Part shown: positions 4,393-63,611 of the stretch, piece after piece
Layout of the letters: each line of letters begins with the position of its first letter
Position numbering within the stretch: the first letter of the stretch is position 1
DNA from: Saprospiraceae bacterium
Lineage (GTDB): Bacteria; Bacteroidota; Bacteroidia; Chitinophagales; Saprospiraceae
NCBI GenBank assembly: GCA_022841745.1
Contig: JALHQW010000029.1
Coordinates: 20,789-84,788, forward strand
Length of the DNA stretch: 64,000 nucleotides
Direction of reading: 5' to 3'
Translations under genes and position numbers: made by a program
The notes under the pieces: model-generated
Database searches by the model: none
The model's input: the letters and a program-made list of their open reading frames with translations, nothing else
Told to the model about the DNA's origin: nothing

Positions 4393-4440
4393 CAATTTCG
4401 CAATTTCGCAATTTCGCAATTTCGCAATTTCCAAATTTCC
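4393..4440. repeat. 8-bp tandem repeat in a divergent promoter region
   Basis: Four perfect CAATTTCG octamers (4393-4424), then CAATTTCC and the degenerate AAATTTCC. They fill most of the 117-bp gap between the divergent starts at 4336 and 4454, so a change in copy number would alter promoter spacing for one or both genes. Confidence 0.95.
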
Positions 4441-4453
4441 TAATCCTTTCTCA

Positions 4454-6460
4454 ATGCTCTGGCAACCTTCCAAGGATTTCATCCAGCAATCGCACCTTCA
4501 CCACTACCTTGGTTGGTTGGCACAAAACTACGATTTGAATTTCCAAAACTACCATGATGCTTGGCAATGGTCTGTTGAAAATATCGAGGACTTCTGGGAA
4601 AGCTGTTGGAAATACTTCAAGGTCATTTCGCACAGCCCTTACAAGCAGGTTTTGAAGGATCGGAAAATGCCCGGCGCCGTCTGGTTCGAAGGAGCCACCC
4701 TAAACTATGCAGAACATGTTTTCAATCGGCCAATGGCCAACGGCCAACGGCCAACCGATGACGACATTGCCATCGTTTTTTCCTCGGAAAGGCACGATTT
4801 GGTAGAAATAACATGGGGGGAGATGCGGAGCGAGGTTGCCAGCATGGCCGCCTATTTGCGCCGCATCGGCATCCAAAAAGGCGATTGCGTGGCCGCATAC
4901 CTGCCCAATATCCCCGAAGCTACTTATGCTTTTTTGGCTTGCGCCTCCATCGGTGCCATCTGGTCGTCCTGCTCCCCTGATTTCGGAACGAACAGCATCG
5001 TTGACCGCTTTTCCCAAATCGAACCAAAAGTCCTCTTCGCTGCCGACGGCTATACCTACAACGGCAAGCCCTTTGATAAAATGGAGGTTGTCAATGAATT
5101 ATGTGAAAAGCTGCCGACCGTCAAAAACGTCATTCTTGTAAATTACCTGAACCAAGGTGGCAGTTTGCAGTTTGCAGTTGGCAGTCAGGTCGCAGCTTCC
5201 AGCACAAGACTGCCAACTGGAAACTGTCGAACTGCCAACTGGAACGAAACCTACCGCCCTGCCCCGCTCCAGTTCACCCCCCTACCCTTCGACCATCCTA
5301 TCTACGTTCTCTATTCAAGCGGCACAACGGGCATGCCTAAAGCCATTACGCACTCACATGGCGGCAACCTGCTGGAACACCTGAAATACCTCCACTTCCA
5401 CAATGACGTACACCCCGGCGAGCGGTTCTTTTGGTTTAGCACCACAGGTTGGATGATGTGGAACTTCGTAAATGCCAGCCTATTGGCGGGAGCAACTATT
5501 GTGCTGTACGATGGAAGTCCAGGCTACCCTAGCCTCGACCGCCTTTGGGACTTGGCCGAAAAGGCCCGAATCGCCCATTTCGGAACGAGCGCACCCTACC
5601 TCAGCGCCTGCATGAAACAGGGGCTTAAACCCGGCAAGCAGCACGACCTCAGCGTATTGCGGAGCATCGGCAGCACTGGCTCTCCCCTACCCCCCGATGC
5701 CTTCGACTGGGTCTATGACCATGTGAAAAAAGACCTTTGGCTCAGCAGCATGGCGGGTGGCACAGACGTCTGCACGGCATGGGTGGGCGGCAATCCGATG
5801 GGACCAGTTTACAAGGGCGAGATACAAGCACGCTGCCTTGGCGCTGCCGTTGAATCTTGGGACGAAAACGGCCAGCCGCTCGCCTCCGGGGTTGGTGAAC
5901 TGGTGGTCACAAAGCCAATGCCTTCTATGCCTGTCTTCTTCTGGGGCGACCACGACCATGAGAAATACCTCGGCAGTTATTTCGATGTTTATCCCGGTAT
6001 CTGGCGGCACGGCGACTGGATCGAAATCACGGAAAACGACGGTATCATTATCTATGGCCGCTCCGACGCTACGCTCAACCGCCAAGGTGTCCGCATCGGC
6101 ACCGCAGAAATCTACCGGGCGCTGGACAAAATCCCCGAAGTGAAGGACGGCCTAATCGTCAATATCGAACTTCCGGGCGGCGGCGATTATATGCCCCTTT
6201 TTATACTTCTCAATGCGGGGGAAACATTGAATGAGGAGTTAAAAAAGCAAATAAACCAGACATTGCGAAGCGAATACTCTCCTCGCCATGTCCCTGACGA
6301 CATCATTGCCTGCCCGGATATACCTTATACCATTAGTGGGAAGAAGATGGAGACGCCCGTAAAAAAGATTTTGATGGGAAAACCATTGGACAAGGCTGCG
6401 AATTTGGATTCGATGCGGAATCCGGAGAGCCTTGCATTTTTCCTGAAATTTAAGCGTTGA
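4454..6460 (+). CDS. Acetoacetyl-CoA synthetase (acetoacetate-CoA ligase)
   Basis: A 668-residue acyl-adenylate-forming enzyme that would activate acetoacetate with ATP and CoA, feeding ketone-body carbon into lipid or central metabolism. The N-terminus (LWQPSKDF..., NIEDFWESCWKYF) and overall length are typical of acetoacetate-CoA ligases rather than acetyl-CoA synthetases. The AMP-binding motif YSSGTTGMPKA is at about residue 288, WFSTTGWMMWN follows, SGGTD-like MAGGTD and the late GRSDATLNRQGVRIG motif (about residue 534) are intact, and the C-terminal lysine region SGKKMETPVKK is present. Two insertions carry repeat DNA in frame: GGCCAAY x4 (residues about 92-101) and a GCAGTTT foldback (about 236-264), both in linker regions before the P-loop. 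The ATG at 4454 gives the expected N-terminus. Confidence 0.92.
   Translation: MLWQPSKDFIQQSHLHHYLGWLAQNYDLNFQNYHDAWQWSVENIEDFWESCWKYFKVISHSPYKQVLKDRKMPGAVWFEGATLNYAEHVFNRPMANGQRPTDDDIAIVFSSERHDLVEITWGEMRSEVASMAAYLRRIGIQKGDCVAAYLPNIPEATYAFLACASIGAIWSSCSPDFGTNSIVDRFSQIEPKVLFAADGYTYNGKPFDKMEVVNELCEKLPTVKNVILVNYLNQGGSLQFAVGSQVAASSTRLPTGNCRTANWNETYRPAPLQFTPLPFDHPIYVLYSSGTTGMPKAITHSHGGNLLEHLKYLHFHNDVHPGERFFWFSTTGWMMWNFVNASLLAGATIVLYDGSPGYPSLDRLWDLAEKARIAHFGTSAPYLSACMKQGLKPGKQHDLSVLRSIGSTGSPLPPDAFDWVYDHVKKDLWLSSMAGGTDVCTAWVGGNPMGPVYKGEIQARCLGAAVESWDENGQPLASGVGELVVTKPMPSMPVFFWGDHDHEKYLGSYFDVYPGIWRHGDWIEITENDGIIIYGRSDATLNRQGVRIGTAEIYRALDKIPEVKDGLIVNIELPGGGDYMPLFILLNAGETLNEELKKQINQTLRSEYSPRHVPDDIIACPDIPYTISGKKMETPVKKILMGKPLDKAANLDSMRNPESLAFFLKFKR
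4728..4755 (+). repeat. In-frame heptamer repeat GGCCAAY x4
   Basis: Four consecutive 7-bp units (one GGCCAAT, three GGCCAAC) inside the acetoacetyl-CoA synthetase gene, encoding part of NRPMANGQRPTDDD. The frame is kept and the flanking protein is normal for the family. Confidence 0.93.
5159..5243 (+). repeat. In-frame heptamer foldback in the acetoacetyl-CoA synthetase gene
   Basis: GCAGTTT-type heptamers at 5160-5187 face reverse-complement copies at 5208-5243. TTTGCAGTTGGCAGTC (5171-5186) pairs with 5208-5223 at 15 of 16 positions around a 21-nt loop. It adds roughly 28 extra residues (rich in Ser, Thr, Gln, Ala) just before the conserved LPFDHPIYVLYSSGTTG segment without breaking the frame. 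Confidence 0.92.
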
Positions 6461-6462
6461 GC

Positions 6463-6567
6463 TACTGTCCGCTTCGTACCGCCGAAGTTTCCTTCGGTGC
6501 TTCAACCTTTACGGAGTTGCGACGAACCTTCAAGGGCTGCGCTGTCGAAGCGGACTTCGACAGTACG
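6463..6567. repeat. Intergenic inverted-repeat element with three hairpins
   Basis: The outer arms TACTGT-CCGCTTCG (6463-6476) and CGAAGCGGACTTCGACAGTA (6547-6566) are reverse complements apart from a short insertion. Inside are CCGAAG/CTTCGG (6482-6497) and a perfect CTGTCGAAG/CTTCGACAG stem with a CGGA loop (6542-6563). It follows the synthetase stop codon and could terminate transcription, although no T-tract follows. The remaining sequence up to 6666 shows no other gene. Confidence 0.75.
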
Positions 6568-6666
6568 ATAATGAAGCACTGCTTTAGCATTTAAAGAAAA
6601 AATAGCAGCCAAATCCCCGCCATTTCGTTGCTTTGCTTCGCAATAAATCAATCACCAATTTCAAAC

Positions 6667-7425
6667 ATGAAAAAAGAACTCATCTTCATTTTATTCATTT
6701 GCTTTGGGATCCAGCGACTGCTGACTGCCCAAATCGCCGACCAGAAGGCATCAGAGAAATGGGATCCTAGGCTCACTGAAGCTTGGGAGACCGTGCCAAA
6801 AGTCATCACGCCCGGCACAGGCACCGCTGCTCCAAGCGATGCCATCGTGCTGTTCGACGGGACGAATCTCAACGAATTCACCCATGAAAACGGCACACCC
6901 GCCCAGTGGGAAGTGAAGGATGGTGCCATGACCGTCAAGCCCAATTCGGGGAATATTTTTTCCAAAAAAGTATTTGGCGACTGCCAGTTGCACATCGAAT
7001 GGCGGGCACCGTCCGTGGTAAAGGGAGAGGGCCAAGGCCGAGGCAACAGCGGCGTCTTCTTGCAAGGCCGCTACGAAGTGCAGGTGCTCGATTGTTTCAA
7101 CAATACAACCTATCCAAATGGGCAAGCTGCCTCTATTTACAAACAGACGATACCACTTGTGAATGCCTGCCGCCCGCCCGGCGAATGGCAGACCTACGAC
7201 ATCATCTACACCGCCCCTCGTTGGAGCGTTGACGGCGTTCGAACTGCGCCGGGCCGTGTCACCGTCATCCACAATGGCATCGTGGTGCAGAACAACACGG
7301 AAATAAAAGGAACCAGCGAGTACATCGGTCTTCCAAAAAACATCGCTCATGGCGATGGCCCTATCATACTCCAGGATCACGGAGATTTGGTAAGCTACCG
7401 TAATATTTGGTTGAGGAAGCTGTGA
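6667..7425 (+). CDS. Secreted DUF1080 protein (3-keto-disaccharide hydrolase family)
   Basis: A 252-residue protein with a signal peptide ([22 protein letters not shown]); the ATG at 6667 is preferred over an upstream in-frame ATG at 6628 because it starts the signal peptide. The mature part matches the DUF1080 fold, a concanavalin-like beta-sandwich: [65 protein letters not shown], then [14 protein letters not shown] and [20 protein letters not shown]. Family members are linked to hydrolysis of 3-keto-glycosides or to glycan binding; the precise substrate cannot be told here. It appears monocistronic, with an inverted-repeat element upstream and a heptamer foldback downstream. Confidence 0.9.
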
Positions 7426-7430
7426 TGTTT

Positions 7431-7705
7431 CTGGATGCTGGATACTGGATACTGGATACTGGATGGCGGAAGACCTGTGTTCCAGAATCAGAAATTCGGT
7501 ATCCAGCATTAGTGGTGTTAGGAAAATTGTTGGATGCGATGTTTTGAATATTTGTGCAACACCCAATTTCCACCGAAGGTGAAAAAAACATAAAAAATCA
7601 TAAAAAATCTGCGTCTTTCTGTGTCAAAAAAAACTGCGTCAATTATTTTCTTAACACCCCTAACCCAGTATCAACAGCATCCAGCATCCAGTATCCAATA
7701 TCCAG
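7431..7705. repeat. Heptamer foldback CTGGATR / YATCCAG
   Basis: Five consecutive CTGGATR heptamers (7431-7465) start 6 bp after the DUF1080 stop codon. Reverse-complement YATCCAG-type heptamers occur at 7678-7705, ending 2 bp before the stop codon of the minus-strand methyltransferase, with one more copy at about 7500-7506. The 212 bp between the arms is AT-rich with A-runs and no convincing gene. The unit differs from those at other loci in the window. Confidence 0.93.
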
Positions 7706-7707
7706 CA

Positions 7708-8562
7708 TCAAACTTTTCTCGCCACGAAATTGACCCCAAAAAAGAAGTATTCTCGCAACAACCCATATTTCTGCCATAGCGCCTGTTCCCGTTTTTGTAC
7801 CTCGACAGGTTGCTTTTTATGAAAAAAGCCTGGCGGAAAGAGGCGCACATAGTTCAGCTTGTCCTCCACCATTTCGAAGCCCGCCTTGATAAACTCCGAG
7901 CGCCAGACTTGGTAAGGTCGAATGTTTTCATTGCCCATCGTCACGTTGCGGCCAAGGCCTTCGTCGTAGTAGTCTATGATGCGGTTGTTGCCCCGCTGTT
8001 TGTAAAGCTTGATGCGCTGGATGAGGTTGTTGCCGTTCTCTTCAATGGCGATTAGCTTGCCGCCTGGCCGCAGGGTCTGACGGAAAATTCGAAGGCTGTC
8101 CTGCAAAGGTTCAAGGTGGTGCAGCGTGTCCTGCACGATGATAATGTCCTCCGAGTTGGGGTTGACCTGGGTGGAGAAGACGTCCTCATAGCTGGTGCGC
8201 ACGAGGCTCATGTCGCCGTATTTCGACCAGTATTCAAGCCGTGGTGGAATCTCCTTGAAATAAAATTCGAGGGTGGTGCCACGGGTTGCGAAGCCGTTTA
8301 GTGCCAAAAAAATTTGGGTAGTGGCGTAGCCACAGCCGCAGTCCCAGATTTTTAGCGGGTGAGCGGGTGAAAAGGTGAGAGGGGGAGAGGGTGAGAGGGG
8401 GTGAGCCTGCACTTGGTCGAGGACATATTGTAGGCGCTGGGTGAAATAAGCCTTGCGGAAGGCCAATTTTGAGGGATCATCGTGGAATTTGTAGTATTCT
8501 CTGAGCTTGTCTCGGTGCCTCAGTTCTTCCAGAAATAGCTCGAAAAATTGTTCGACGTTCAT
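7708..8562 (-). CDS. Class I SAM-dependent methyltransferase with repeat-derived insert
   Basis: A 284-residue Rossmann-fold methyltransferase. Motif I is IWDCGCGYATTQ (about residues 72-83), followed by a glutamate-bearing strand (TTLEFYFKEIPPRL), EDIIIVQDTLHHLEPLQDSLRIFRQTLRPGGKLIAIEENGN (motifs IV to VI) and a C-terminal substrate region. The His-His-Leu and RPGG signatures are typical of small-molecule methyltransferases; the substrate is not evident. Six octamers at 8355-8402 add a proline-rich stretch (about residues 54-69) directly before motif I, an unusual place but outside the core fold. A TAGCTTTG box lies 5 bp before the start codon. Confidence 0.88.
   Translation of the reverse strand: MNVEQFFELFLEELRHRDKLREYYKFHDDPSKLAFRKAYFTQRLQYVLDQVQAHPLSPSPPLTFSPAHPLKIWDCGCGYATTQIFLALNGFATRGTTLEFYFKEIPPRLEYWSKYGDMSLVRTSYEDVFSTQVNPNSEDIIIVQDTLHHLEPLQDSLRIFRQTLRPGGKLIAIEENGNNLIQRIKLYKQRGNNRIIDYYDEGLGRNVTMGNENIRPYQVWRSEFIKAGFEMVEDKLNYVRLFPPGFFHKKQPVEVQKREQALWQKYGLLREYFFFGVNFVARKV
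8355..8402 (-). repeat. In-frame octamer array (6 units) in a methyltransferase gene
   Basis: Six 8-bp units read on the plus strand: GCGGGTGA twice, AAAGGTGA, GAGGGGGA, GAGGGTGA, GAGGGGGT. The 48 bp equal 16 codons, so the frame is preserved; the peptide is rich in Pro, Ser and His (HPLSPSPPLTFSPAHPL). Confidence 0.93.
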
Positions 8563-8566
8563 GGGG

Positions 8567-8574
8567 CAAAGCTA
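8567..8574 (-). promoter_or_regulatory. Possible Bacteroidota -7 box for the methyltransferase gene
   Basis: The minus strand reads TAGCTTTG, matching TAnnTTTG, just 5 bp before the ATG at 8562. No clear TTG lies at the usual upstream distance, and so short a leader would be nearly absent, so the call is weak. Confidence 0.35.
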
Positions 8575-8765
8575 AGCATATCCATAACTATTCAGCAGGG
8601 GGCGTTTTTTTGAAAAATTGAAAATTAAGATGAAAAACTCCCCACAAGTAGGATGGATAAATAAAAAATGACATTCCGCTTCCGCATATCTGCCACTAAT
8701 TAAACTGATACGTCTATCCTTTTGATTACAGATTTTCAGAAGTTTGCGTTGCAAAGTAAAAACCA

Positions 8766-9821: not shown

Positions 9822-9866
9822 TCCGCAATCCATTGTCATTCCCGAAGGGTCCTAAGTCCGCAATCG

Positions 9867-10625: not shown

Positions 10626-10864
10626 TGAATATGGGTTGGAATGTTTTGAAAAAAACGGGAAACGCTTACCTTCGCACTCCCATTGTAAAATAAAGGCCGA
10701 AAGGTAGGCAATTCGGGCAATTTGCCCAATCGCCACCGATTTTAATGCCTTTTTAGTCTCACCGAACAGTTTCCAAAATCAAACATCACCAGTCAATCCT
10801 GGCTAAAAACATTCTTTTAGCACGGTTTTGCGAACTTTGCCCCTTTAGCTTACTTAGTGCCATC

Positions 10865-11458: not shown

Positions 11459-11459
11459 C

Positions 11460-11561
11460 TTGGTGATTCGTGATTGGTGATTCGTGACTCGGAGCACCTG
11501 CGAACTTCCCAATCACGAGTCACCAATCACGAGTCACCAATCACGAGTCACGAATCACCAA
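11460..11561. repeat. Heptamer foldback KGTGATT / AATCACG-AGTCACC
   Basis: Four heptamers (GGTGATT, CGTGATT, GGTGATT, CGTGACT; 11462-11489) are faced by seven reverse-complement heptamers (11511-11559) around a short 21-bp centre. It starts directly after the tdk stop codon and could form a long imperfect hairpin acting as a terminator or mRNA 3' end. Confidence 0.95.
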
Positions 11562-11598
11562 CCACCCCCATAAAATTTAGAACTAAAAACAAACACTA

Positions 11599-12456: not shown

Positions 12457-12492
12457 AAAAGGGTTTTCAGGCAATTGGTTACTGATATTATA

Positions 12493-12536
12493 AAGAATGC
12501 CTTCTGGCCTTGATTGCCAGGAGGCATTCTTTTTTG
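12493..12536 (+). terminator. Rho-independent terminator of nadC
   Basis: A stem of about 16 bp (AAGAATGCCTTCTGGC with GCCAGGAGGCATTCTT) with one mismatch and a short loop is followed by a T6 tract, 36 bp after the nadC stop codon. Confidence 0.9.
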
Positions 12537-12566
12537 GGTACCCACTACTGATTTTTGTAAATATGT

Positions 12567-12668: not shown

Positions 12669-12829
12669 GATTAAGTGTTGTTTTTTAATAAAATGGTTGA
12701 GTATCATGTCTTACATGAATGGTTTGGTTTTACGAATTGTGGCAAAATGTATGAAAGGGAAAATAAATGGACCTAACCTATCTTTTCAAATAGGATGCCA
12801 ACAGGATTTTCTTTAATTTGTTTTAAGGA

Positions 12830-13867: not shown

Positions 13868-13890
13868 AATGCGGTGGACAGTTGAAGGAT

Positions 13891-14373: not shown

Positions 14374-14395
14374 GAAAAAATGATTAGCAAACGGC

Positions 14396-20689: not shown

Positions 20690-21865
20690 ATGGACATACC
20701 ATCACTCCGCAATGATACGCCTGGTTGCGCCTTGCACAACCACTTGAACAATGCAGGAGCAAGCTTGCCGCCGGCTCCTGTGATTAAAGAAGTACTGGGT
20801 TATTTGGAAGAGGAATCCCTGCATGGCGGTTACGAAATGGCTGCAGCCTATGCACAAGAAATTGCTGGGTTTTATGATGCTACCGCAAAGTTGTTGAATG
20901 CAAAACCTCACAATATCGCTTTTGCTGGAAGTGCGACCGATGCCTATTTCCGGGCGCTATCGTCCATCCCATTCGAGGCAGGGGATGTAGTGCTCACAAC
21001 TGACGATGATTATGTGAGCAACCAGATTGCCTTCATCAACCTACAGAAAAGGTTCAAAGTCAAACTGCTGAGGGCGGAGAAACTGCCAGAAGGTGGTGTT
21101 GACCCACAATCCATGAAGGAACTGATGGACGAGCATTGCCCCAAAGTCGTTGCGGTGGCGCATGTGCCCACCAATTCAGGCTTGGTGCAAGATGTGGAGG
21201 CCATCGGCGCACTCTGCACAGAAAGGGATATTTGGTACATGGTGGACGCCTGCCAGTCGGCTGGCCAAATGCCGTTGGATGTCGCCAAAATTGGTTGTGA
21301 TTTCCTTAGCGTCACCATGCGCAAATGGCTGCGTGGGCCAAGGGGCGCTGGGTTTCTCTATGTCTCCGATTTGGCACTGGGCGCAGAATATGAAACGATT
21401 TTCCCAGATTTGGCTGGTGGAGTCTGGAACACAGCTGATAATTACCGCTTGGTACCAACCGCCAAAAGGTACGAGCAATGGGAGAAAAACTATGCCTTGG
21501 TGTTGGGTTCAAAGGTTGCGATTGAATATGCCCTGAGGCTGGGCTTGGAAAATATTGAGCAGGCCGTTATTGAATTGGCCACTTACACCCGACAGCAACT
21601 TTCCGAGTTGGACAATGTTCGTCTATTGGACAAGGGAGGCAAGCTTTGTGGCATCGTTACTGCCTATTTTAATGGAATAACGCCATCGCAAATAAGCGGG
21701 GCTTTAAAAGCAGCCAATATCAATGCAGGAATTGCCACCACCATCAATGCCCATATTGACTTTACGGAAAAAGGGGTGGATTGGGCATTGCGCATTTCGC
21801 CCCATTATTTCAACACAAAGGAAGAGATTGACGCCGCCATCTGCGTACTGCGTCAAATTGCGTAA
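20690..21865 (+). CDS. Class V aminotransferase (PLP-dependent)
   Basis: A 391-residue PLP enzyme of the class V/isopenicillin-N-epimerase-like group. NHLNNAGASLPPAPV opens the fold, VVAVAHVPTNSGLVQDVEAIG and WYMVDACQSAGQMPLDV contain the cofactor Asp, and SVTMRKWLRGPRGAGFLYVSD bears the Schiff-base Lys in the KWLRGPRG motif. Some members are cysteine desulfurases or lyases, so the exact reaction is open; no SufE or isc genes lie nearby. The preceding methyltransferase gene ends 32 bp upstream and the next gene starts 23 bp downstream. Confidence 0.9.
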   Translation: MDIPSLRNDTPGCALHNHLNNAGASLPPAPVIKEVLGYLEEESLHGGYEMAAAYAQEIAGFYDATAKLLNAKPHNIAFAGSATDAYFRALSSIPFEAGDVVLTTDDDYVSNQIAFINLQKRFKVKLLRAEKLPEGGVDPQSMKELMDEHCPKVVAVAHVPTNSGLVQDVEAIGALCTERDIWYMVDACQSAGQMPLDVAKIGCDFLSVTMRKWLRGPRGAGFLYVSDLALGAEYETIFPDLAGGVWNTADNYRLVPTAKRYEQWEKNYALVLGSKVAIEYALRLGLENIEQAVIELATYTRQQLSELDNVRLLDKGGKLCGIVTAYFNGITPSQISGALKAANINAGIATTINAHIDFTEKGVDWALRISPHYFNTKEEIDAAICVLRQIA

Positions 21866-21888: not shown

Positions 21889-22368
21889 ATGGAATCGTTC
21901 CAGCATTTTCCAGCCGAAACAAGGGTTTGGATTTATCAATCAAACAAGCACATCCCTGAGGAGACAGCTTCGGCTTTAAAGCAAGCTGTCAACCAGTTTG
22001 CGCAGAACTGGGTCAGCCATAACCGCCAGCTACGGGCACACGGCGATGTGTTGCATAACCGCTTCATCTTGCTGGCCGTTGACGAAAGCCAAGCGGACGC
22101 CAGTGGTTGCTCCATTGACAAGAGCGTCCATTTCATCAAGCAGGTGGAAGGCCAGCTCGGTGTTGATCTTTTCGATAGGATGACTTTTGCCTGGCTCGAA
22201 GGCAACGAAGTGAAGACTGCTTCGAGCCAAGCATTTGCGGAGCTATACCAATCAGGACAAATCAGCAACGAAACCCTCGTTTTTGATAATTTGGTCAAGA
22301 CGAAAGGCGAATTGGAAGAAAACTGGCTCAAGCCGCTCAACAAAAGCTGGCACAGGAGGTTTGTCTGA
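21889..22368 (+). CDS. Conserved Bacteroidota protein of unknown function
   Basis: A 159-residue cytoplasmic protein. The ATG at 21889 is preferred over the TTG at 21868, which adds only MKKNNHS. Conserved-looking segments are RVWIYQSNKHIPEE, AQNWVSHNRQLRAHGDVLHNRFILLAVDES, SGCSIDKSVHFIKQVEGQLGVDLFDRM and WLKPLNKSWHRRFV. I associate this protein with Bacteroidota, where it is sometimes mislabelled as an ABC transporter ATPase; no Walker motifs are present. Function unknown. It ends at a foldback repeat. Confidence 0.82.
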   Translation: MESFQHFPAETRVWIYQSNKHIPEETASALKQAVNQFAQNWVSHNRQLRAHGDVLHNRFILLAVDESQADASGCSIDKSVHFIKQVEGQLGVDLFDRMTFAWLEGNEVKTASSQAFAELYQSGQISNETLVFDNLVKTKGELEENWLKPLNKSWHRRFV

Positions 22369-22372
22369 TGGC

Positions 22373-22480
22373 TTCATGGATTCACAGATGCATGGTTTCA
22401 CTGTTACAATTTTTCATGTGGCTTGGAAGGTAGTTTGATGGGCCATGAAGCAATTGAACCGTGAAACCATGAAGCAATAT
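22373..22480. repeat. Foldback repeat with CATGG-containing arms
   Basis: The left arm (about 22373-22409; GCTTCATGG, GCATGGTTTCACTGTT) is an imperfect reverse complement of the right arm (about 22443-22479; CCATGAAGCAATTG, GTGAAACCATGAAGCAAT). It fills the 117 bp between two plus-strand genes. The words resemble the element at 62853-62951 (ATGAAACAAT, CCATGA). Confidence 0.8.
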
Positions 22481-26993: not shown

Positions 26994-29798
26994 ATGGAAT
27001 ACAATCCTCGTGAAATAGAGCAAAATTGGAAAAAATGGTGGGCCGACCACCAAGTTTACAAAGTCAGCAACGACTCCACCAAGCCTAAATACTACGTCCT
27101 CGACATGTTCCCCTACCCTTCCGGCGCTGGCCTGCACGTCGGCCACCCGCTTGGATATATAGGTTCTGACATCTTCGCACGCTACAAGCGGCAGCAAGGC
27201 TACAATGTGCTGCACCCGATGGGCTACGACGCCTTCGGCTTGCCCGCTGAGCAGTATGCCATCCAAACGGGCGTCCACCCCGCCAAGTCCACCGCCGCCA
27301 ACATTGCCCGCTACCGGGAGCAGTTGGACAAAATCGGTTTCAGCTTCGACTGGAGCCGGGAGGTGCAGACCAGCGACCCCAGCTACTATAAATGGACGCA
27401 GTGGATTTTCCTCCAGCTCTTTGGCCATTGGTACGACACCAAAGCTACGAAGGCCCGCCCAATTGAGGAACTCATCGCCATTTTTGAAAAAGAAGGAGCC
27501 TCCAATGCAAAGGCCGCATGTTCTGAGCCACAAGATTTTTCTGCTGCGCAATGGGCCGCCATGACCCCCAAGGAAAAGGACGATGTGCTGATGAACTACC
27601 GCCTCGCCTACCGCAAAACCACCTACGTATGGTGGTGCGAGGACCTGGGAACTGTGCTCGCCAACGATGAAGTAAAAGACGGCGTGAGCGAACGGGGCGG
27701 CTACCCCGTGGAACGCAAGCCGATGCTCCAATGGAGCCTCCGAATTACTGCCTATGCCGATCGCCTGTTGAGCGACCTCGATACCGTGGACTTCAGCGAC
27801 GCCATGAAAAAAATGCAGGGCAACTGGATTGGCAAATCGCAGGGCGCACAGATGAGATTTCGGATTGCGGATTGCGGATTGCGGATTGGGGAGGCTGCCC
27901 AAGAACCTGAAATTGAAATCTTTACAACAAGGCCCGATACGATTTTCGGGGCGACGTTCATGGTGATTGCGCCAGAGCACGATTTGGTGAAGCAAATTAC
28001 GACACCAGCGCAGTCCAATGAAATCGCTGACTACCTCGCCTACGTGAACACCCGCAGCGAGCGAGACCGCATGTCCGAGACGAAGGAAGTGTCTGGCGCA
28101 TTCACGGGTGCTTTTGCTTTGAATCCCTTCAATGGCGAGAAAATCCCCATCTGGATTGCCGAATACGTGCTGAAGGACTACGGCACGGGCGCCATCATGG
28201 CCGTGCCCGCCGACGACGAGCGGGACATGCGCTTTGCCAAAAAATTCAACCTGCCCATCGTCGAAATCATTGACAAAAGCATGTACCCCGGCGCTACCAT
28301 CGAGGACAAGCTGGGCAAGATGATTAACTCCGACTTCCTCGACGGCATGGAGGTGATGGACGCCATTGAGGAGATATTGCAGCGCATCGAAACAATGGGC
28401 ATCGGGGTCCGCAAAATCAATTTCCGCTTGCGGGATGCCATCTACAGCCGCCAACGCTATTGGGGCGAGCCGTTCCCTATCGCCTACGATGCCGACGGCG
28501 TGGCGCACCCACTGCCCATCGAAGAACTGCCATTAGAACTTCCTGAATTGGACGACTTCAAGCCCGCCTCTGGTGCAAAATCGCCGCTGGCCCGTGCCGA
28601 AAACTGGGTCAATTTTCAAGAAGGCTGGCGTCGGGAAACGGACACCATGCCAGGCTTCGCTGGCTCCTCTTGGTACTTCCTGCGCTACATGGATGCAAAC
28701 AACGATACTGATTTTGCTTCGCAAAAAGCCTTGAATTACTGGCAAGACGTTGACCTCTACGTGGGCGGCACTGAACATGCTGTGGGCCATTTGATGTACA
28801 GCCGTTTTTGGCATAAATTCTTGTATGACAAAGGCTTGGTGCCGACGAAGGAGCCGTACAAGAAGCTGTTGAACCAGGGGATGATTCAGGGTAAGTCGGC
28901 CATCATGGAAGTGAAGACCGAAGGCGGTAATGTACTTGAGCTTTATGTCCCGGTTAGCTTCGTGGATGAGAATTGGAGGCTTCCAATAGCTGATTTACCA
29001 AAGCTACAAGTCGAGGACAACCGCTTTGAGCAGGTCAATCCATCCACGAATGTTACAGTTGAAAAGGACAAAGAAGGTAGGGAGTTCATCCCATTGTTGA
29101 TGCGGGTTGAAAAAATGTCAAAACGGTTGTTCAACGTCGTGAACCCCGACGAAATGGTAGAACGCTACGGTGCCGACTGCTTCCGCATGTACGAAATGTT
29201 CCTCGGCCCCATCGAACAGGCCAAGCCTTGGGACACAAAGGGCATCAACGGCGTTTCGGGCTTCCTGCGCAAGCTGTGGATGCTGTTTTTCGATGAAAAC
29301 AACGGCAAGCCGCTCGTCAACGACGCCGAACCGACGAAGGAGGAATGGAAAATCCTGCACACCTGCATCAAGAAGGTGACGGACGACATCGAGCGCTTTT
29401 CGTTCAATACCTGCGTGAGTTCATTCATGATTTGCGTCAACGAATTGCGCAGCGCCAACTGCTCCAAGCGAGCCATCTTAGACGAATTGGTGCGGCTGCT
29501 GTCGCCTTTCGCACCCTTCACCGCCGAGGAGCTTTGGCACCAACTGGGCCATGAAACAACCGTTTGCGAAGCGCCCTATCCAAAGCTCAACGAGGCTTAC
29601 CTTGTGCAGGACAGCATCCCCTATCCCGTCAGCATCAATGGCAAGAAAAGGGACTTGGTGGAACTGCCCGCTGGATTGAGCGTACCCGAACTGGAGAAGG
29701 CCGCCTTGGAATTGGACAAGGTGCAGAAATGGCTGGAAGGACAAACCGTGAAAAAGATCATTGTGGTGCCCGGTAGGATGATCAATATTGTGGTGTGA
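26994..29798 (+). CDS. leuS: Leucyl-tRNA synthetase
   Basis: A 934-residue class I aminoacyl-tRNA synthetase that charges tRNA-Leu. The ATG at 26994 starts the canonical MEYNPREIEQNWKKWW; the upstream frame is not conserved. HIGH region: PYPSGAGLHVGHPLGY (HVGH, about residue 48). KMSKS region: EKMSKRLFNVVNPDE (about residue 708). The editing domain shows NWIGKSQGAQ and FTTRPDTIFG. Between them CGGATTG x4 adds about 13 residues (residues about 289-302) in a loop of the CP1 editing domain. The catalytic segment GSSWYFLRYMD and the C-terminal anticodon region are normal. A terminator follows. Confidence 0.97.
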   Translation: MEYNPREIEQNWKKWWADHQVYKVSNDSTKPKYYVLDMFPYPSGAGLHVGHPLGYIGSDIFARYKRQQGYNVLHPMGYDAFGLPAEQYAIQTGVHPAKSTAANIARYREQLDKIGFSFDWSREVQTSDPSYYKWTQWIFLQLFGHWYDTKATKARPIEELIAIFEKEGASNAKAACSEPQDFSAAQWAAMTPKEKDDVLMNYRLAYRKTTYVWWCEDLGTVLANDEVKDGVSERGGYPVERKPMLQWSLRITAYADRLLSDLDTVDFSDAMKKMQGNWIGKSQGAQMRFRIADCGLRIGEAAQEPEIEIFTTRPDTIFGATFMVIAPEHDLVKQITTPAQSNEIADYLAYVNTRSERDRMSETKEVSGAFTGAFALNPFNGEKIPIWIAEYVLKDYGTGAIMAVPADDERDMRFAKKFNLPIVEIIDKSMYPGATIEDKLGKMINSDFLDGMEVMDAIEEILQRIETMGIGVRKINFRLRDAIYSRQRYWGEPFPIAYDADGVAHPLPIEELPLELPELDDFKPASGAKSPLARAENWVNFQEGWRRETDTMPGFAGSSWYFLRYMDANNDTDFASQKALNYWQDVDLYVGGTEHAVGHLMYSRFWHKFLYDKGLVPTKEPYKKLLNQGMIQGKSAIMEVKTEGGNVLELYVPVSFVDENWRLPIADLPKLQVEDNRFEQVNPSTNVTVEKDKEGREFIPLLMRVEKMSKRLFNVVNPDEMVERYGADCFRMYEMFLGPIEQAKPWDTKGINGVSGFLRKLWMLFFDENNGKPLVNDAEPTKEEWKILHTCIKKVTDDIERFSFNTCVSSFMICVNELRSANCSKRAILDELVRLLSPFAPFTAEELWHQLGHETTVCEAPYPKLNEAYLVQDSIPYPVSINGKKRDLVELPAGLSVPELEKAALELDKVQKWLEGQTVKKIIVVPGRMINIVV
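27861..27888 (+). repeat. In-frame heptamer repeat CGGATTG x4 in leuS
   Basis: Four exact CGGATTG heptamers (28 bp) inside the LeuRS editing-domain coding sequence; they encode FRIADCGLRIGE in a loop between NWIGKSQGAQ and EIFTTRPDT. The flanks are normal LeuRS sequence. Confidence 0.96.
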
Positions 29799-52332: not shown

Positions 52333-52362
52333 CTGTTTTTTTCATTGCCTTAGGTGATTTGT

Positions 52363-58707: not shown

Positions 58708-58802
58708 CTCGATTTATAGTGTTAAAAGGCTTGTCGCTGCCAAACCGGTGTTAAGAACAATTTTTTCAAAAAAACAGGCTAATACTTTCTTCAGGCTGCT
58801 GG

Positions 58803-58973
58803 GGGTATCCCGCTTGGTATGTCTTTCATGGTAATGGAGAGAAAAGTGCTATTGTGGAGTTAGCTTTAGAAAACGAATTGGAATCGGAAATGGGCTTACC
58901 AGATATCGCTTTTGACCAGTGGAGTTGGAATTCTGGCGTAAAAAAAACAAGAAAAATTAGATTGACCAAATAA
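58803..58973 (+). pseudogene. Possible gene remnant (about 56 codons, no start)
   Basis: In the 647-bp gap upstream of the giant type B gene one plus-strand frame stays open to a TAA at 58971 and reads like real protein: GYPAWYVFHGNGEKSAIVEL, then LENELESEMGLPDIAFDQWS and a basic tail KKTRKIRLTK. It has no ATG in frame before a stop codon at 58752. It may be the C-terminal remnant of a decayed gene. The family is not recognised, so it may also be chance. Confidence 0.35.
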
Positions 58974-59354
58974 TCAAGACATTACAATCAAATTCCGCTG
59001 AAATAAGCCAAAAACCAATTCACTTTTATTTTATTTGGGAAGAATCGAAAAAACGTTTAAAGGCAAGATTGCTTTTAGTTCGTGGCTCATAAATATCTTT
59101 CGGGACGAGCCTTCAATCCTATATCGAGCACGACCACTTAATTTTGACCGTAAGGACATCCTTCAACTCATTTTTTAGCTCCCACTCGAGTGCCCAACTT
59201 AACCCTAATTCAATTATGGGCTTAGGCCTTCCCTTTAAAAGGAAAAAGGGGAGAAAATATAAAATCAAGAAACAAGATTTCAATGAAACTTGGATACAAA
59301 GGCCAAAAATTTTGCTGCCGCATTAACAGTATAAAAAACAATGCCATATTTCAT
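58974..59354. other. Intergenic region without a recognised feature
   Basis: 380 bp between the remnant and the gnd stop codon. A plus-strand frame ending near 59326 has basic, Lys-rich residues (KRKKGRKYKIKKQDFNETW) but no family features. No hairpin or promoter stood out. Confidence 0.5.
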
Positions 59355-60254
59355 TTACCCTGCACGCTCAACAGCATGGCCTCCAAACTCATTGCGAAGC
59401 GCCGCAACGACCTTACCCCCAAACGTATCTTCTTCTTGTGACCGAAAGCGCATCAGCAAAGAAAGCGCAATGACGGGGGTAGGCACCCCAAGGTCCAGGG
59501 CGGTCTCTATGGCCCATTTGCCTTCTCCACTTGAATGCACGATGCCCTTGATGGATGAAAGTTTTGGGTCCTTTGAAAATGCGTTTTGCGTTAGCTCCAT
59601 GAGCCAACTACGCACCACCGAGCCATGGTTCCATACCTTGGCAATGGCCTCGAAATCAATGTCAAACTGGCTTTTGTTGAGCACCTCAAAGCCCTCGGCA
59701 ATGGACTGCATCATGCCATACTCGATGCCATTGTGAACCATTTTGGTGAAATGACCGCTACCTGCCGCCCCGACGTAAAGACTGCCATTTTCAATTGAAA
59801 TGGCATCAAATAGCGGCTTGCATACTTCGTAAGCATCACGGTCGCCGCCTATCATGGTGCAAGCCCCGTTCAGGGCACCACTTGTGCCACCGCTGGTGCC
59901 ACAATCAAGAAACTTGATACCACGCTCCTGGAACATGGTATAATGCCGCAAAGTATCTTTGTAATTGGAGTTGCCCCCGTCAATCACGATATCGCCAGGG
60001 GAAAGCAGGTCAGGCAATTGCGCCAGCACCGACTCCGTTGCTGGCCCAGCTGGAACCATGCTCCAAATTACCCTTGGAGATGGCAAGTGCATGGCCACCG
60101 CTTGCATACTACTGGTGGTCACGATGCCAGCGTCCGCCGATTTTTTACGGTTGGCATCGTCTATGTCGAAAGCCACCACGGTGAACTTGTTGCGTAGCAT
60201 GTTGAGGGCAAGGGGGAATCCCATTTTGCCTAAGCCAATAAGCCCAATTGTCAT
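59355..60254 (-). CDS. gnd: 6-phosphogluconate dehydrogenase (decarboxylating), short form
   Basis: A 299-residue enzyme that oxidatively decarboxylates 6-phosphogluconate to ribulose 5-phosphate. GLIGLGKMGFPLALNML is the Rossmann motif, VIDGGNSNYKDT and SGGTSGALNGACTMIGG are family signatures, and GHFTKMVHNGIEYGMMQS carries the catalytic Lys and Asn. At 299 residues it is the short GndA/YqeC-type form, often NAD-dependent, rather than the 470-residue dimeric form. It is read from the same strand as gntP 151 bp upstream, and the two would form a gluconate pathway once a kinase, not in the window, is added. Confidence 0.92.
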   Translation of the reverse strand: MTIGLIGLGKMGFPLALNMLRNKFTVVAFDIDDANRKKSADAGIVTTSSMQAVAMHLPSPRVIWSMVPAGPATESVLAQLPDLLSPGDIVIDGGNSNYKDTLRHYTMFQERGIKFLDCGTSGGTSGALNGACTMIGGDRDAYEVCKPLFDAISIENGSLYVGAAGSGHFTKMVHNGIEYGMMQSIAEGFEVLNKSQFDIDFEAIAKVWNHGSVVRSWLMELTQNAFSKDPKLSSIKGIVHSSGEGKWAIETALDLGVPTPVIALSLLMRFRSQEEDTFGGKVVAALRNEFGGHAVERAG

Positions 60255-60278
60255 TTGTCAAGTGATTTGTTTTCAAGC

Positions 60279-60399
60279 AACTATTTAGCATCGGTGTTTT
60301 GTGGGAAAAATTTTCAATTTTTCCCACAAAACACCGAAACCCGTGGGAGGAGAGAAAAAATGAAATTTTTTCTCTCCTCCCACACCTTCCTAAATAGTT
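60279..60399. repeat. Three-stem foldback element between gntP and gnd
   Basis: The 151-bp gap between two minus-strand genes is almost all paired. Outer stem: AACTATTTAG (60279-60288) and CTAAATAGTT (60390-60399). Inside: hairpin A, a perfect 21-bp stem (60292-60312 with 60316-60336) and a 3-nt loop; hairpin B, a perfect 19-bp stem (60343-60361 with 60365-60383) and a 3-nt loop; 6-nt spacers. Together they draw a three-way junction in RNA or a double cruciform in DNA. The two hairpins share related words (GTGGGA, GAAAAAAT). It could stop or limit gntP-to-gnd readthrough, or be processed by RNase III. No protein-coding potential. Confidence 0.96.
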
Positions 60400-60405
60400 A
60401 ACTTT

Positions 60406-61722
60406 TCAAATAAAAATATCCATCAAAAGGCAGCCCCCAAGGCCAACCAGGGAAACGATGGTTTCCATGACCGTCCATGAGCGCAGCGTCTGCCAGATTG
60501 TCAAGTTGAAATATTCTTTGAAGAGCCAAAAACCCGTGTCATTTACCTGAGAACAGGTAAGCGAACCTGCTCCCGTTGCCAACACCATTAGTTCGGGATT
60601 CACATTTCCCGTCCCAATCAGTGGCTGCATGATACCCGCCGCCGTTAGGGCCGCCACGGTTGCAGAGCCAAGTGCAATCCGTAACACCGCTGCCACTGAC
60701 CATGCCATTATGAGTGGTGAAAGTGTCAGTCCTTTCATCAGCCCGACAATATAGTCACTGGTTCCACTACTGACCAACACCTCCTTGAAAGCGCCACCAG
60801 CTCCGAGTATCAATAGAATCATGGCGATGGGCTTAACGTGCTCGCCCAAGCCATCCATCAGCACGGCAAATCGCTTCCCTGATTTTTTTCCCAACAAGAA
60901 AACAGCTGCAAAAACTGAGGCTAGCAACGAAATGACAGGGTCTCCCAAGAATTGGAGCACTTGATTTAGGAGGTTTTCCTTTGGTAAAAACAGCATACCT
61001 ACAGCCCCAAGCCCCATCAGCAGCACTGGTATAAGTGAAACAAGCACCGAAATGCCAAACGAAGGCAATTGCGAAGCGGAATGTGTATTGATTTTGAACA
61101 GCTTTTCGTTGACCACAGTAGGTATCCTGTGCATCGTTTTCCCGAATAATACCCCTGCCACGATGACGGTCGGAATAGCGATGACTAAGCCATAAATCAA
61201 GGTCAATTGCATGTTGGCATTGTAAAAATCAACAATGGCCGTAGGAGCGGGGTGCGGCGGCAGGAAGCCGTGCATGACGGAAAGCGAGGCGATAATTGGA
61301 AGTGCTACTACCAGAATTGGTTGCTGGGTCTCCTTCGCCATGGCAAAAATGATGGGCAGCACCATCAAGAATGCCACATTGTAAAACATGGGAATGCCGA
61401 TGATAAAGCCAGTGAGCACCATCGCCCATGTGATGTTCTTTATCCCAAACACATCGGTCAGGCGCCTGGAAATCACTTGCGCTGCCCCGCTTTCTGCAAT
61501 CAAGCCACCCAAGATTGCGCCCAATCCCATGATGAGCGCCAGCGTACCAAGCGTCCCCCCTACCCCTTTCTGAATGGCGGCCAAGGTGTCGGCAGTGGAC
61601 ATTCCCATGCTCAGGCCCACGCCAAGCGCCACGAGCAACAGCGCCAAGAAGGCGTTCATTCGCAGCCCAATGATGAGCAACAGAAGCACTACAATCCCTA
61701 TGAGTATAATGATTAGCGGCAT
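60406..61722 (-). CDS. gntP: Gluconate:H+ symporter (GntP family)
   Basis: A 438-residue inner-membrane transporter with about 12-14 hydrophobic segments. The ATG at 61722 (MPLIIILIGIVVLLLLIIGL) gives the normal family length; the longer frame to 61995 overlaps the terminator region upstream. GntP-type signatures: GGTLGTLALIMGLGAILGGLIAESG, FIIGIPMFYNVAFLMVLP, SLSVMHGFLPPHPAP, LGSATVAALTAAGIMQPL. It imports gluconate or a related sugar acid. Its stop codon is 6 bp before the three-stem element, and gnd follows, so the two form a metabolic module. Confidence 0.92.
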   Translation of the reverse strand: MPLIIILIGIVVLLLLIIGLRMNAFLALLLVALGVGLSMGMSTADTLAAIQKGVGGTLGTLALIMGLGAILGGLIAESGAAQVISRRLTDVFGIKNITWAMVLTGFIIGIPMFYNVAFLMVLPIIFAMAKETQQPILVVALPIIASLSVMHGFLPPHPAPTAIVDFYNANMQLTLIYGLVIAIPTVIVAGVLFGKTMHRIPTVVNEKLFKINTHSASQLPSFGISVLVSLIPVLLMGLGAVGMLFLPKENLLNQVLQFLGDPVISLLASVFAAVFLLGKKSGKRFAVLMDGLGEHVKPIAMILLILGAGGAFKEVLVSSGTSDYIVGLMKGLTLSPLIMAWSVAAVLRIALGSATVAALTAAGIMQPLIGTGNVNPELMVLATGAGSLTCSQVNDTGFWLFKEYFNLTIWQTLRSWTVMETIVSLVGLGGCLLMDIFI

Positions 61723-61933
61723 AAGCAGATGCGAAAATCCAATTTGGATTACAACGCTGACCCATTTCAAAAGCAAATCAGGCTGTTTGCGAAGCAAGAA
61801 AGCTTTTGAAACATTTTGCGGGGCGAAAAGTAGGGAAAAGATTGAAAGTTGGAAGCCTGTAAAAACGAAAACGGCCCATTTGAAGGTAAATCCTCCAAAT
61901 GGGCCGATGGAAGTGGCCAAGCTTACGTGTTTT
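61723..61933. terminator. Intergenic region with a terminator for the 61934 gene
   Basis: Contains a 14-bp stem with one mismatch at 61873-61905 (GGCCCATTTGAAGG / CCTCCAAATGGGCC); read on the minus strand it is followed by GTTTTCGTTTTT, so it terminates the upstream adhesin-like gene. The rest should hold the gntP promoter; none is obvious. Confidence 0.75.
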
Positions 61934-62836
61934 CTATGGATTCCTAATGATGATGTCCCCAAAACTAATCTTGACAGAGATGTTAGACTTGCCAATTTTG
62001 GAGGAGAAAATAGCTTTCTTGAGGTCGGTTGTATTTTGCAAATAATTGAGTTTCAGGTTATTGGGCGCCGTGATGGTGCCGTAATGGGCAGTTAGTGTAT
62101 AGCCGTAGTAATTGGGCTTGGGGTCAAAGAAATAGACATCAGATTTCTCTCCTGTGATGTTCATGGTCAGTAAATCGGGGCTTGGGTTCGTGAAAAACTT
62201 CATCACGCCGTATTGGGAATTGATATTCCAAGTGCCTTTGATGTCATGCAAAGTAATGTCTGAGCGGCGAGCGTTAATGGTCACATTTCCATCAATATCC
62301 CGGCCTTCTATATCACCGAAACGGGTTTCAAGTCCAATTTGGCCACTTATGTTGTCAAGGTTGATTTTTGAAAATTGGCTGTTCACCCGCAGCGACCTCG
62401 TTAGGTTGCTGATTTCCGATAGGCCATAGTTGTTCTTCATGTAAACCGGGCAATCTGCCGGCAGGGTGATGGTATAAATGGCCTTAATGTCAGAACTGGA
62501 CTTTTTTGTGCCTTTCTTGGAAGATAGGTAGTTGCGGAAATAGAGCTTGCTACCGACCTGCTCGGTACTGTAAACCATCTGGTCGAGGTCGGCTTGGGCA
62601 GTTTTCCGGTCAATGTTTTTGGAGACGAGTTCCACCAACACTTTGACCTCGTTGCGCTGCCAGGTTTCTACCTTTATTTCTGCTTTCTCGCCCTCGATGT
62701 TCACCTCCGTTCCGTTCTTGTAGGGGAAGGTGTTCTCCATCACTTTCGTCACCACCTGAAGCGTCGTCTGTGCTGCCAAGCCGTAGGAAAAAAGAGCTAA
62801 GGCGTTGACAATCAGCAACTTTGAACTATTTTTCAT
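61934..62836 (-). CDS. Secreted DUF4097-like beta-helix protein
   Basis: A 300-residue protein with a signal peptide (MKNSSKLLIVNALALFSYGLAAQ). The mature part is built of short beta strands repeating every 20-25 residues (VNIEGEKAEIKVETWQRNEVKVLVELV, LRVNSQFSKINLDNISGQIGLETRFGDIEGRDIDGNVTI), the pattern of DUF4097 adhesin-like proteins. It sits downstream of an anti-sigma-like gene and an ECF sigma factor on the same strand, which is a common arrangement in Bacteroidota. Probably in the periplasm or at the surface; ligand unknown. Transcription ends at the hairpin near 61873. Confidence 0.85.
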   Translation of the reverse strand: MKNSSKLLIVNALALFSYGLAAQTTLQVVTKVMENTFPYKNGTEVNIEGEKAEIKVETWQRNEVKVLVELVSKNIDRKTAQADLDQMVYSTEQVGSKLYFRNYLSSKKGTKKSSSDIKAIYTITLPADCPVYMKNNYGLSEISNLTRSLRVNSQFSKINLDNISGQIGLETRFGDIEGRDIDGNVTINARRSDITLHDIKGTWNINSQYGVMKFFTNPSPDLLTMNITGEKSDVYFFDPKPNYYGYTLTAHYGTITAPNNLKLNYLQNTTDLKKAIFSSKIGKSNISVKISFGDIIIRNP

Positions 62837-62852
62837 GGATTCATTGATTCAT

Positions 62853-62951
62853 GGCTGCATGGTTACATGGTTGGATTGTTTCATTTACACCTCATTTTGC
62901 CTGACCGAAATAGCTAAGGCTATGAAACAATGCAACCATGAAACAATGCAG
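62853..62951. repeat. Foldback element in the sigma/anti-sigma operon
   Basis: The 31-bp arms at 62853-62883 and 62921-62951 are reverse complements at 28 of 31 positions around a 37-bp centre. The words GCATGG, ACATGGTTGG and ATTGTTTCAT recur as heptamer-like units. It lies between the anti-sigma-like and DUF4097-like genes and could form a strong mRNA stem between them. Confidence 0.95.
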
Positions 62952-62955
62952 CAAT

Positions 62956-63582
62956 TTAAATAAGCATCGCTATCATTTTCTTGAGTACGCCATTGCGCTC
63001 AAGCTCTATTTCTTTGATTTGAATTACCAGGTCTGCGTCAGTGCTGAACTCGCCAATTGCTTCTTTGAGTTCTTCCTTGGCTGCGGTTAGTTCTTCCAAC
63101 TCACCTTGCAGCATCTTGAATTCAGGCTGTTCGCATACTATTTTTTTTGCTTCGCAAAGGCTGAGGAATTCCCCAAAAGCATCCTCGTCCGCATCCCAAT
63201 CGTGTTGCAACAGCAAGGGGTCAACCGTTTCTTCGCTGAAATTGACGGCCACCACATTGGCTTCCAGTTGCTTGCTTCCATTCAACTGCCAGTATGCGAC
63301 CAGCAAAAGCGCCAACGAGGCAGCTACTGCCAATGCCTTTCGCCAACCGAGCTTCACGATTTTGGCTTGGGGTTTTTGACCGTCCAATTGCTTCGCAATG
63401 CCATCCCATGCGCTATCAGGTGGCTCGTATTGCGGCAACGACAATAGCAACTGCTTTGGCATGACCGACTCAAGCCCACCTTCCATTTGCTCCTCAATCT
63501 GCTCCCAGAGCATCTCTTTTGGTTCGTGCTCCGGCAACGAGGACAGCGCTTCTATTAATGTTTTTTTATTCTGTTCTTCCAT
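62956..63582 (-). CDS. Anti-sigma-factor-like transmembrane protein
   Basis: A 208-residue protein with a cytoplasmic N-terminal half, one transmembrane segment (ALAVAASLALLLVAYWQL, about residues 83-100) and an extracytoplasmic coiled-coil-like tail (QGELEELTAAKEELKEAIG). The N-terminal half has two related short repeats (LSSLPEHEPKEMLWEQIEEQM and LLSLPQYEPPDSAWDGIAKQL), which may bind the sigma factor. Location directly downstream of the ECF sigma gene supports an anti-sigma role, which would release the sigma factor on an envelope signal. No canonical zinc motif is visible. Confidence 0.78.
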   Translation of the reverse strand: MEEQNKKTLIEALSSLPEHEPKEMLWEQIEEQMEGGLESVMPKQLLLSLPQYEPPDSAWDGIAKQLDGQKPQAKIVKLGWRKALAVAASLALLLVAYWQLNGSKQLEANVVAVNFSEETVDPLLLQHDWDADEDAFGEFLSLCEAKKIVCEQPEFKMLQGELEELTAAKEELKEAIGEFSTDADLVIQIKEIELERNGVLKKMIAMLI

Positions 63583-63587
63583 TTGAA

Positions 63588-63611
63588 AGGATTGAAGGAT
63601 TGAGGGATTGA
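63588..63611. repeat. Octamer repeat AGGATTGA x3
   Basis: AGGATTGA, AGGATTGA, GGGATTGA at 63588-63611, just upstream of the anti-sigma-like start codon and 39 bp past the sigma factor stop. Same class of local microrepeat as elsewhere in the window, here without a facing arm. Confidence 0.9.

Follow-up and report, generated by a model that had tools for sequence, protein, structure and literature searches.

Heptamer and octamer micro-arrays with strand polarity in a Saprospiraceae-like genome and its relatives

The stretch of DNA analysed here, called the window in the following, is 64 kb long (positions 20789-84788 of contig C29) and belongs to a Saprospiraceae-like genome of 8.43 Mb in 178 contigs (G000). 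It carries short tandem arrays of 7- or 8-bp units, some of them faced by reverse-complement copies, and these micro-arrays represent a class of repeats that is real, widespread and polar: facing pairs nearly always begin with their G-rich arm, and this strand polarity is the strongest regularity of the arrays. The closest named matches of the acetoacetyl-CoA synthetase (acs) in the window were metagenome genomes labelled Saprospiraceae or Bacteroidetes. A genus set of 14 genomes including G000 was used for comparison; its other members are other species, with no sister strain of G000 among them, and G067 and G070 are the nearest by PriA identity (92%).

Abundance, strand polarity and gene context

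Tracts were detected by plain periodicity in 14-base windows with at most two mismatches. Positions 271-64000 of the window (1-270 were masked) yielded eight period-7 and five period-8 tracts, one of the former (21780-21800) being weak and only 21 bp long. The average over 30 dinucleotide shuffles was 0.27 and 0.13, and periods 5, 10, 11 and 13 gave 1, 1, 0 and 0 tracts. The 7- and 8-bp runs listed by an earlier, sequence-only reading of this DNA are thus present and far over chance, and the comparison with shuffled sequence that it had proposed came out equally clearly beyond the window: 382 kb of G000 from other contigs held 31 period-7 and 16 period-8 tracts, compared with 0-2 and 0-3 in three third-order Markov sequences. 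Periods that are multiples of 3 were also elevated in this sample, as expected for coding DNA. The full G000 sample of 845 kb, window included, contained 68 period-7 and 33 period-8 tracts versus 6, 11, 6 and 7 for periods 5, 10, 11 and 13, after removal of tracts consisting to more than 75% of one base; the same filter was applied to the cross-genome unit counts and the three-genome polarity given below. The corresponding period-7 and period-8 numbers were 39 and 33 in G061 (432 kb) and 34 and 14 in G067 (216 kb). Other genera differed, with four and six tracts of periods 7 and 8 in 40 kb of G018 and none in 40 kb each of G043 and G055, and cyanobacterial plasmids, taken as a comparison, held seven tracts and one pair in 150 kb. 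An assembly artefact is unlikely, because separate species assemblies have arrays at the same gene sites. In a viral-contig collection, whose contigs may be cellular, 254 period-7 tracts were counted in 628 kb (L334-L400), with words unlike those of G000; the array class therefore extends past the family of G000.

An inverted repeat is identical on both strands, so the order of its arms is a property of the element itself. Of 31 non-redundant pairs in G000, 30 had a 5' arm richer in G than in C, the remaining one was a tie and no pair was reversed; for G000, G061 and G067 together the G-rich arm came first in 66 untied pairs against 3 (two ties left out). Inverted repeats outside arrays in the same three genomes were G-first in 100 cases against 49 (18 ties left out). 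The sequence-only reading does not mention any polarity. The baseline lean came mostly from G000 (62 versus 22), perhaps through terminator-like hairpins. As this baseline leans in the same direction, the excess over it (P ~1e-8) is the fair figure for the polarity. Perfect hairpins occur at 60291-60337 of the window and in L145, L136, L156 and L163; their arms measure ~20 bp, their loops are 3 nt long and the loop ends are A/T-rich. They are probably terminators, and such terminator-like hairpins also tend to a G-rich 5' arm.

Polarity was also followed in two sets of stretches that were selected for holding a heptamer array and may be cellular. In 67 viral-collection stretches with one repeat word, pairs built from other words were G-first in 40 cases against 9 (two ties), compared with a baseline of 22 against 12; duplicates were not removed from these pairs and the search-unit filter was rough, so that a few related pairs remain. 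Their G+T content showed no clear lean (28 versus 23). Among 80 of 104 TAACTGA-bearing stretches, other-word pairs were G-first by 15 to 2 (three ties) against a baseline of 26 to 34, and the TAACTGA pairs themselves had no polarity (4 versus 3). In G000, a short G-run lies 3' of the G-rich strand, with G at 0.41-0.47 at the first four bases (93 arrays); it was absent in 45 arrays of relatives. A conserved motif behind the arrays was not general, GGGGGC and GGGGCT each appearing within 30 nt in four arrays.

Across the window and 80 further stretches, 60 of 146 tracts had a reverse-complement partner within 250 bp at the 99.5% level of shuffled flanks, a count in which both arms of one pair may each figure. 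Eight loci were folded as single-stranded DNA, and seven of them reached z scores of -6.1 to -9.1. Positions relative to genes were taken from a simple open reading frame (ORF) caller, whose ORFs cover 88.8% of the bases. Even so, 60 of 93 arrays were intergenic, 30 lay wholly inside predicted ORFs and three across ORF ends; the intergenic share was 35 of 44 for paired and 25 of 49 for single arrays. Where an array lay in or overlapped an ORF, its G-rich strand was antisense in 22 of 33 cases.

Unit vocabulary and turnover at fixed gene sites

The 68 period-7 arrays of the G000 sample were built from only 35 distinct units, compared with 65.6 for random 7-mers (minimum 61 in 200 draws), and ATTGCGG was the unit of 11 of them. 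An exact unit was common to another sampled stretch in 42 of the 68 period-7 and 16 of the 33 period-8 arrays. The sequence-only reading had assigned each locus a unit of its own, which roughly holds inside the window and fails in the genome sample; it had also held that the arrays are not copies of one sequence family, and here it was right, as a single mobile sequence family was rejected on the 35 units in 68 arrays and the flanks of five unit families. No element body was common to these flanks, apart from one adjacent repeat of 80-97 bp, a local L158 duplication and matches of ~22-46 bp that are largely repeat material. The 80-97-bp repeat is dispersed, ~87% identical and found beside arrays at ~7580-7680 of the window, L158:2779 and L169:19643; it lies inside the foldback in the window and outside the arm in L158. 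At L158:16090-16490, four copies of a ~125-bp tandem repeat each carry their own AGTGGGC-type array. The words GGGAATC, GGGANTN and TAACTGA were not among the 35 listed units of the 68 arrays.

Units were shared between species as well. Those of 28 of the 68 G000 period-7 arrays were also found in G061 and those of 28 in G067, against 2.3 and 1.9 for letter-shuffled units; mostly private vocabularies per genome, as suggested by small samples, were dropped as an idea after larger samples showed this strong sharing. The GGTGATT pattern matched 61 times in G000, 18 times in G068 and 0-6 times in the 12 other genus members, and its backward control, also a heptamer pattern, gave zero matches except for 9 in G064 and 6 in G018. 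A 19-mer of the ATTGCGG family matched 66 times in G000 (overlaps counted) and 59 times in G105, a member of another genus, with no match in the other 118 of 120 genomes searched, the same-genus G071 included, and none for its backward control in all 120. Common ancestry, transfer or convergence may underlie the sharing with G105. In the viral collection, the 19-mer was found in 67 stretches versus 9 for the backward control.

The sequence-only reading had also proposed a comparison of the same loci in relatives, and this revealed presence, absence and change of unit between species. For leucyl-tRNA synthetase (LeuRS), 36 of 39 loci were extracted. Judged by eye and length, the LeuRS loop carried no array in other genera (26 orthologues, with 211-226 bp over the stretch compared), and six of ten orthologues in the genus had the bare 214 bp. 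Inserts at this loop measured +27 bp in G000 (GGATTGC), +18 bp in G066 (AAATCCG, in the opposite orientation) and +15 bp in G061 (no clear array), while G072 (+51 bp; L118) and G064 (+126 bp; L122) carried a G+C-rich palindrome there. All five inserts are multiples of 3.

For acs, PriA and MurF-Alr, only sequences with both anchors were counted; anchoring failed in most relatives for the MurF-Alr regions A1 and A2 and succeeded only in G067 for the site upstream of acs. PriA contains an AGTTGGC-type foldback in G067, G061, G068 and G069 and a worn form of it in G070, G065 and G072. In G000, CGGTGGA faces CCAATCA at this place, and in G066 a CGGTGGA-like unit faces CCAATTT; PriA of G071, G062 and G073 had no array. 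At acs site 3, read on the G-rich strand, the unit was AGTTGGC in G000 and G068, AATTGGT in G061, ATTGGTG in G073 and ATTGTTG plus AATTGGG in G066; G067 had AAATCCG-like repeats under the tract threshold, and G065, G071, G064 and G062 had no array. Units also differed between G000 and G067 at acs site 2, and MurF-Alr site B carried ATTGCGG in G000 and ATTTCGG in G070. Array lengths varied among orthologues at PriA and acs, and lengths were equal modulo 3 in all anchored sequences of acs site 2 (nine), acs site 3 (ten) and PriA (12). At MurF-Alr B this was true of nine out of ten, and the odd length there seems to be a one-base anchor shift. With a unit length of 7, selection must keep the reading frame.

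Array positions in the window

The arrays of the window are listed with the strand that carries the G-rich unit. Directly upstream of the acs gene, a period-8 array of CAATTTCG lies at 4393..4439 (-), where G067 has an AGTTTTG-type foldback. Within the gene, a period-7 array of GGCCAAC occupies 4727..4755 (-), for which G067 has a different unit and seven other anchored orthologues have no array. A foldback follows in the same gene, with a period-7 left arm of GCAGTTT/GGCAGTT at 5158..5185 (+), an ACTGCCA right arm at 5209..5241 (-) and a fold z of -8.2. The next left arm, a period-7 array of CTGGATA at 7431..7464 (+), lies in an ORF that probably does not represent a gene, and the period-7 right arm CAGCATC/CCAGTAT is found ~210 bp away at 7675..7709 (-). 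A period-8 array of GGGTGAGA at 8357..8399 (+) is located within a methyltransferase-like gene (7708-8562, minus strand). Directly behind the end of a predicted ORF and ahead of a QPRTase gene, a period-7 left arm of GTGATTC/GTGATTG at 11463..11491 (+) is paired with a CCAATCACGAGTCA-type right arm at 11511..11565 (-), with a fold z of -6.8.

At 22368..22400 (+), a degenerate period-8 array of ATGGATTC is a possible left arm, and degenerate facing copies of the CATGAAGC type can be read from the sequence at 22444..22478 (-). A period-7 array of GGATTGC at 27856..27892 (+) lies in the LeuRS editing domain and corresponds to +27 bp relative to most orthologues. Near the end of the window, a period-8 left arm of TTCATGGA/TGGTTACA at 62832..62870 (+) faces a CATGAAACAATG-type right arm at 62922..62952 (-), with a fold z of -6.1, and a period-8 array of AAGGATTG/AGGATTGA at 63587..63614 (+) lies upstream of a minus-strand ORF (62956-63582). 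The first 262 bp of the window belong to another repeat type: a largely palindromic 46-bp unit (GTTTACTAAACTT / AAGTTTAGTAAAC) is repeated ~5.5 times in tandem.

That arrays sit inside conserved genes, as had been claimed, is confirmed by the open frames of acs (two arrays), LeuRS and the methyltransferase-like gene. The claimed five or six foldback loci are reduced to four with facing copies (5155-5241, 7431-7709, 11460-11565 and 62832-62952) and a weaker pair at 22368-22478, where the region 22362-22480 folded with a z of -2.6 and 3 of 200 shuffles folded equally well.

Origin of the arrays and relation to known repeats

We consider it an even bet that the dispersed heptamer and octamer micro-arrays arose from slippage together with hairpin and ectopic template switching, and were kept where tolerated. 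This mechanism, which we infer from the patterns described above, would require no dedicated function. Arrays would grow through DNA polymerase slippage by 7-8 nt. A nascent strand with a G-rich unit could fold back or switch template, so that a C-rich arm is copied 3' of itself and a G-rich-first hairpin results, and stalls at such hairpins may sometimes be repaired by copying another array in the genome, by which unit families would spread and units would be replaced at the same site. Selection would act mainly by removing arrays that break genes, so that arrays persist between genes and in flexible protein linkers. Slippage would explain the period and fold-back template switching the arms with the same unit; a switch of template from one arm of an inverted repeat to the other is a well-established reaction, as far as the accessible parts of three papers describe it (PMC7202029, PMC8604942, PMC8794818). 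Since local slippage fails to explain the recurring units, either loci must copy from one another or a common constraint must act on the units; ectopic template switching is favoured because the sharing of unit sets is only partial and the sets expand genome by genome.

Several points weigh against this explanation. The polarity of 66 to 3 is not predicted by plain slippage and template switching unless a strand bias is added; it is the least explained regularity and needs the extended strand to carry the G-rich unit. The sharing of units between species (28 of 68) and the patchy 19-mer could also result from transfer or from constrained units. The order of variant units in the two arms is weak as proof of fold-back copying: the best register, itself chosen by alignment, surpassed both shifted registers in 27 of 41 cases. 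Finally, all comparisons were made between species, and no array event was caught between near-identical strains.

A purely local origin, with on-site slippage and local fold-back copying and no exchange between loci, comes close to the local slippage and template switching put forward from the sequence alone. It agrees with the lack of shared flanks within five unit families, the named exceptions aside, and with the LeuRS loop of G061, where AATTGCCGAC may be a retained seed of the G000 array GGATTGC; Borg tandem repeats, too, are held to arise from local sequence in the accessible text of PMC9879509. However, 42 of 68 period-7 arrays share their exact unit elsewhere and 35 distinct units stand against 65.6 expected, which makes this origin unlikely. 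Slippage with template switching is consistent with the favoured model, but the same unit families turn up repeatedly, both in the genome and in the genus, so that purely local slippage is not enough.

We regard as quite unlikely a system of mobile micro-elements, whose unit families would be spread in trans by a transposase or similar, like REPs by RAYTs. Families within genomes, species-specific expansion (GGTGATT with 61 matches in G000 versus 0-18 in 13 others), the patchy occurrence of the ATTGCGG-family 19-mer in another genus and the presence of Y1-type transposase genes (nine matches in G000) would all suit it. However, the five families compared have no common ends or element body, and there are many units instead of a single sequence. 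Y1 matches were found in 12 of 14 genus genomes with no link to arrays, and their counts did not track density, with three in array-rich G061 and three and four in array-poor G065 and G073 (small samples). Neither reverse transcriptase nor Y1 transposase was retained as a driver, as their numbers and array density did not go together in the few genomes for which both are known. REP/REPIN and Rickettsia palindromic elements are small dispersed palindromes, the Rickettsia ones in frame in genes, with one conserved sequence per family; we know of none with 7-8-bp tandem arms. The conserved element with constant ends by which a REP/REPIN or MITE is recognized was not seen in the five families, nor was a general terminal motif.

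Very doubtful is an extension of both 3' ends at a break with G-rich repeats, resembling telomere addition, followed by joining. It would yield G-rich-first facing arrays directly and allow unlike units on the two sides. The polarity (66 versus 3) fits, as both 3' ends would then carry the G-rich strand, and so do the unlike-unit facing arrays in PriA (CGGTGGA/CCAATCA in G000, CGGTGGA-like/CCAATTT in G066) and the G-run 3' of the G-rich strand in 93 arrays of G000. On the other hand, that G-run is missing from 45 arrays of relatives, TAACTGA pairs lack polarity (4 versus 3), and neighbouring unlike-unit arrays in G000 were G-first in only four of eight cases, with one reversed and three pointing the same way. 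An enzyme was not identified in a search limited to RVT_1, with template RNA not sought; RVT_1 matches occurred in 7 of 14 genus genomes, with none in the array-rich G061. We would be just as hesitant to propose that repeats of 7-8 nt are written in many bacteria by a directional process, which acts on G-rich 3' ends at breaks or stalled forks and draws on a partly genome-specific vocabulary, pairs being two-ended and single arrays one-ended scars. Selection for functional RNA hairpins (terminators, attenuators or protein-binding sites) is highly improbable: intergenic position (60 of 93 arrays, 35 of 44 paired), strong folds (seven of eight loci at z -6.1 to -9.1, one at -2.6) and the G-first lean of non-array inverted repeats (100 versus 49) would agree with it, but 30 of 93 arrays are located entirely within predicted ORFs, and relatives differ in the presence and the unit of arrays at one and the same place.

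The arrays belong to a known class of bacterial heptameric repeats, which is compared here on the accessible parts of the published accounts. The heptamers of Xanthomonas (GGGAATC) and Nostoc PCC 7120 (GGGGA(C/T)T) form dispersed, mostly intergenic, G-rich 7-bp arrays with 70 and 75 cases of convergent nearby repeat-site pairs (PMC4692102). We read these convergent pairs as the same G-rich-first polarity, and length and sequence variation between relatives is also alike; however, those genomes have one unit family each, whereas G000 has many families of periods 7 and 8, arrays in conserved-gene linkers and unit replacement at a fixed site. TAACTGA heptamers, described for Beggiatoaceae, Cyanobacteria and five Bacteroidetes (PMC4679880), resemble the present arrays: units are mixed in some genomes, the distribution is patchy, lengths differ between strains in steps of 7 nt, and some arrays lie in ORFs. 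The Beggiatoaceae genome differs in that one unit dominates, mainly in direct repeats that immediately precede start codons and only once in inverted form. The Nostoc tRNA-Leu intron contains degenerate, hairpin-pairing heptanucleotide repeats that fold back, change copy number and belong to different classes at one site (PMC3488679), but it is a single intronic locus, and a genome-wide vocabulary is not described in the accessible text. Borg tandem repeats share many loci with their own units, positions in and between genes, a kept frame and a strand composition bias, but are perfect, have in-gene units divisible by three and are held to be unique per locus (PMC9879509). According to Mrazek 2007, as cited in PMC4679880 and PMC4692102, heptamers are the commonest unit of long repeats, for which a link to the polymerase footprint was suggested; the citing passages mention neither foldback nor polarity.

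The statement that this form had no description was therefore too broad, given the convergent pairs of Xanthomonas (PMC4692102) and the intron foldbacks of Nostoc (PMC3488679), and stands for the full combination: no description of a many-unit vocabulary with foldback pairs, fixed-site turnover and general polarity was found in the accessible open-licence literature. As far as that literature shows, the many-unit vocabulary, the unit turnover at fixed sites and the general polarity appear to be new here. In conserved proteins such as LeuRS, PriA, acs and MurF-Alr, the arrays show the gain and swap of linkers. The dominance of heptamers in long bacterial microsatellites has so far been explained, in the accessible accounts, only by the polymerase-footprint suggestion. 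The periods of 7 and 8, the G-rich-first polarity and the turning-over vocabulary make this question testable, and any mechanism must yield all three.

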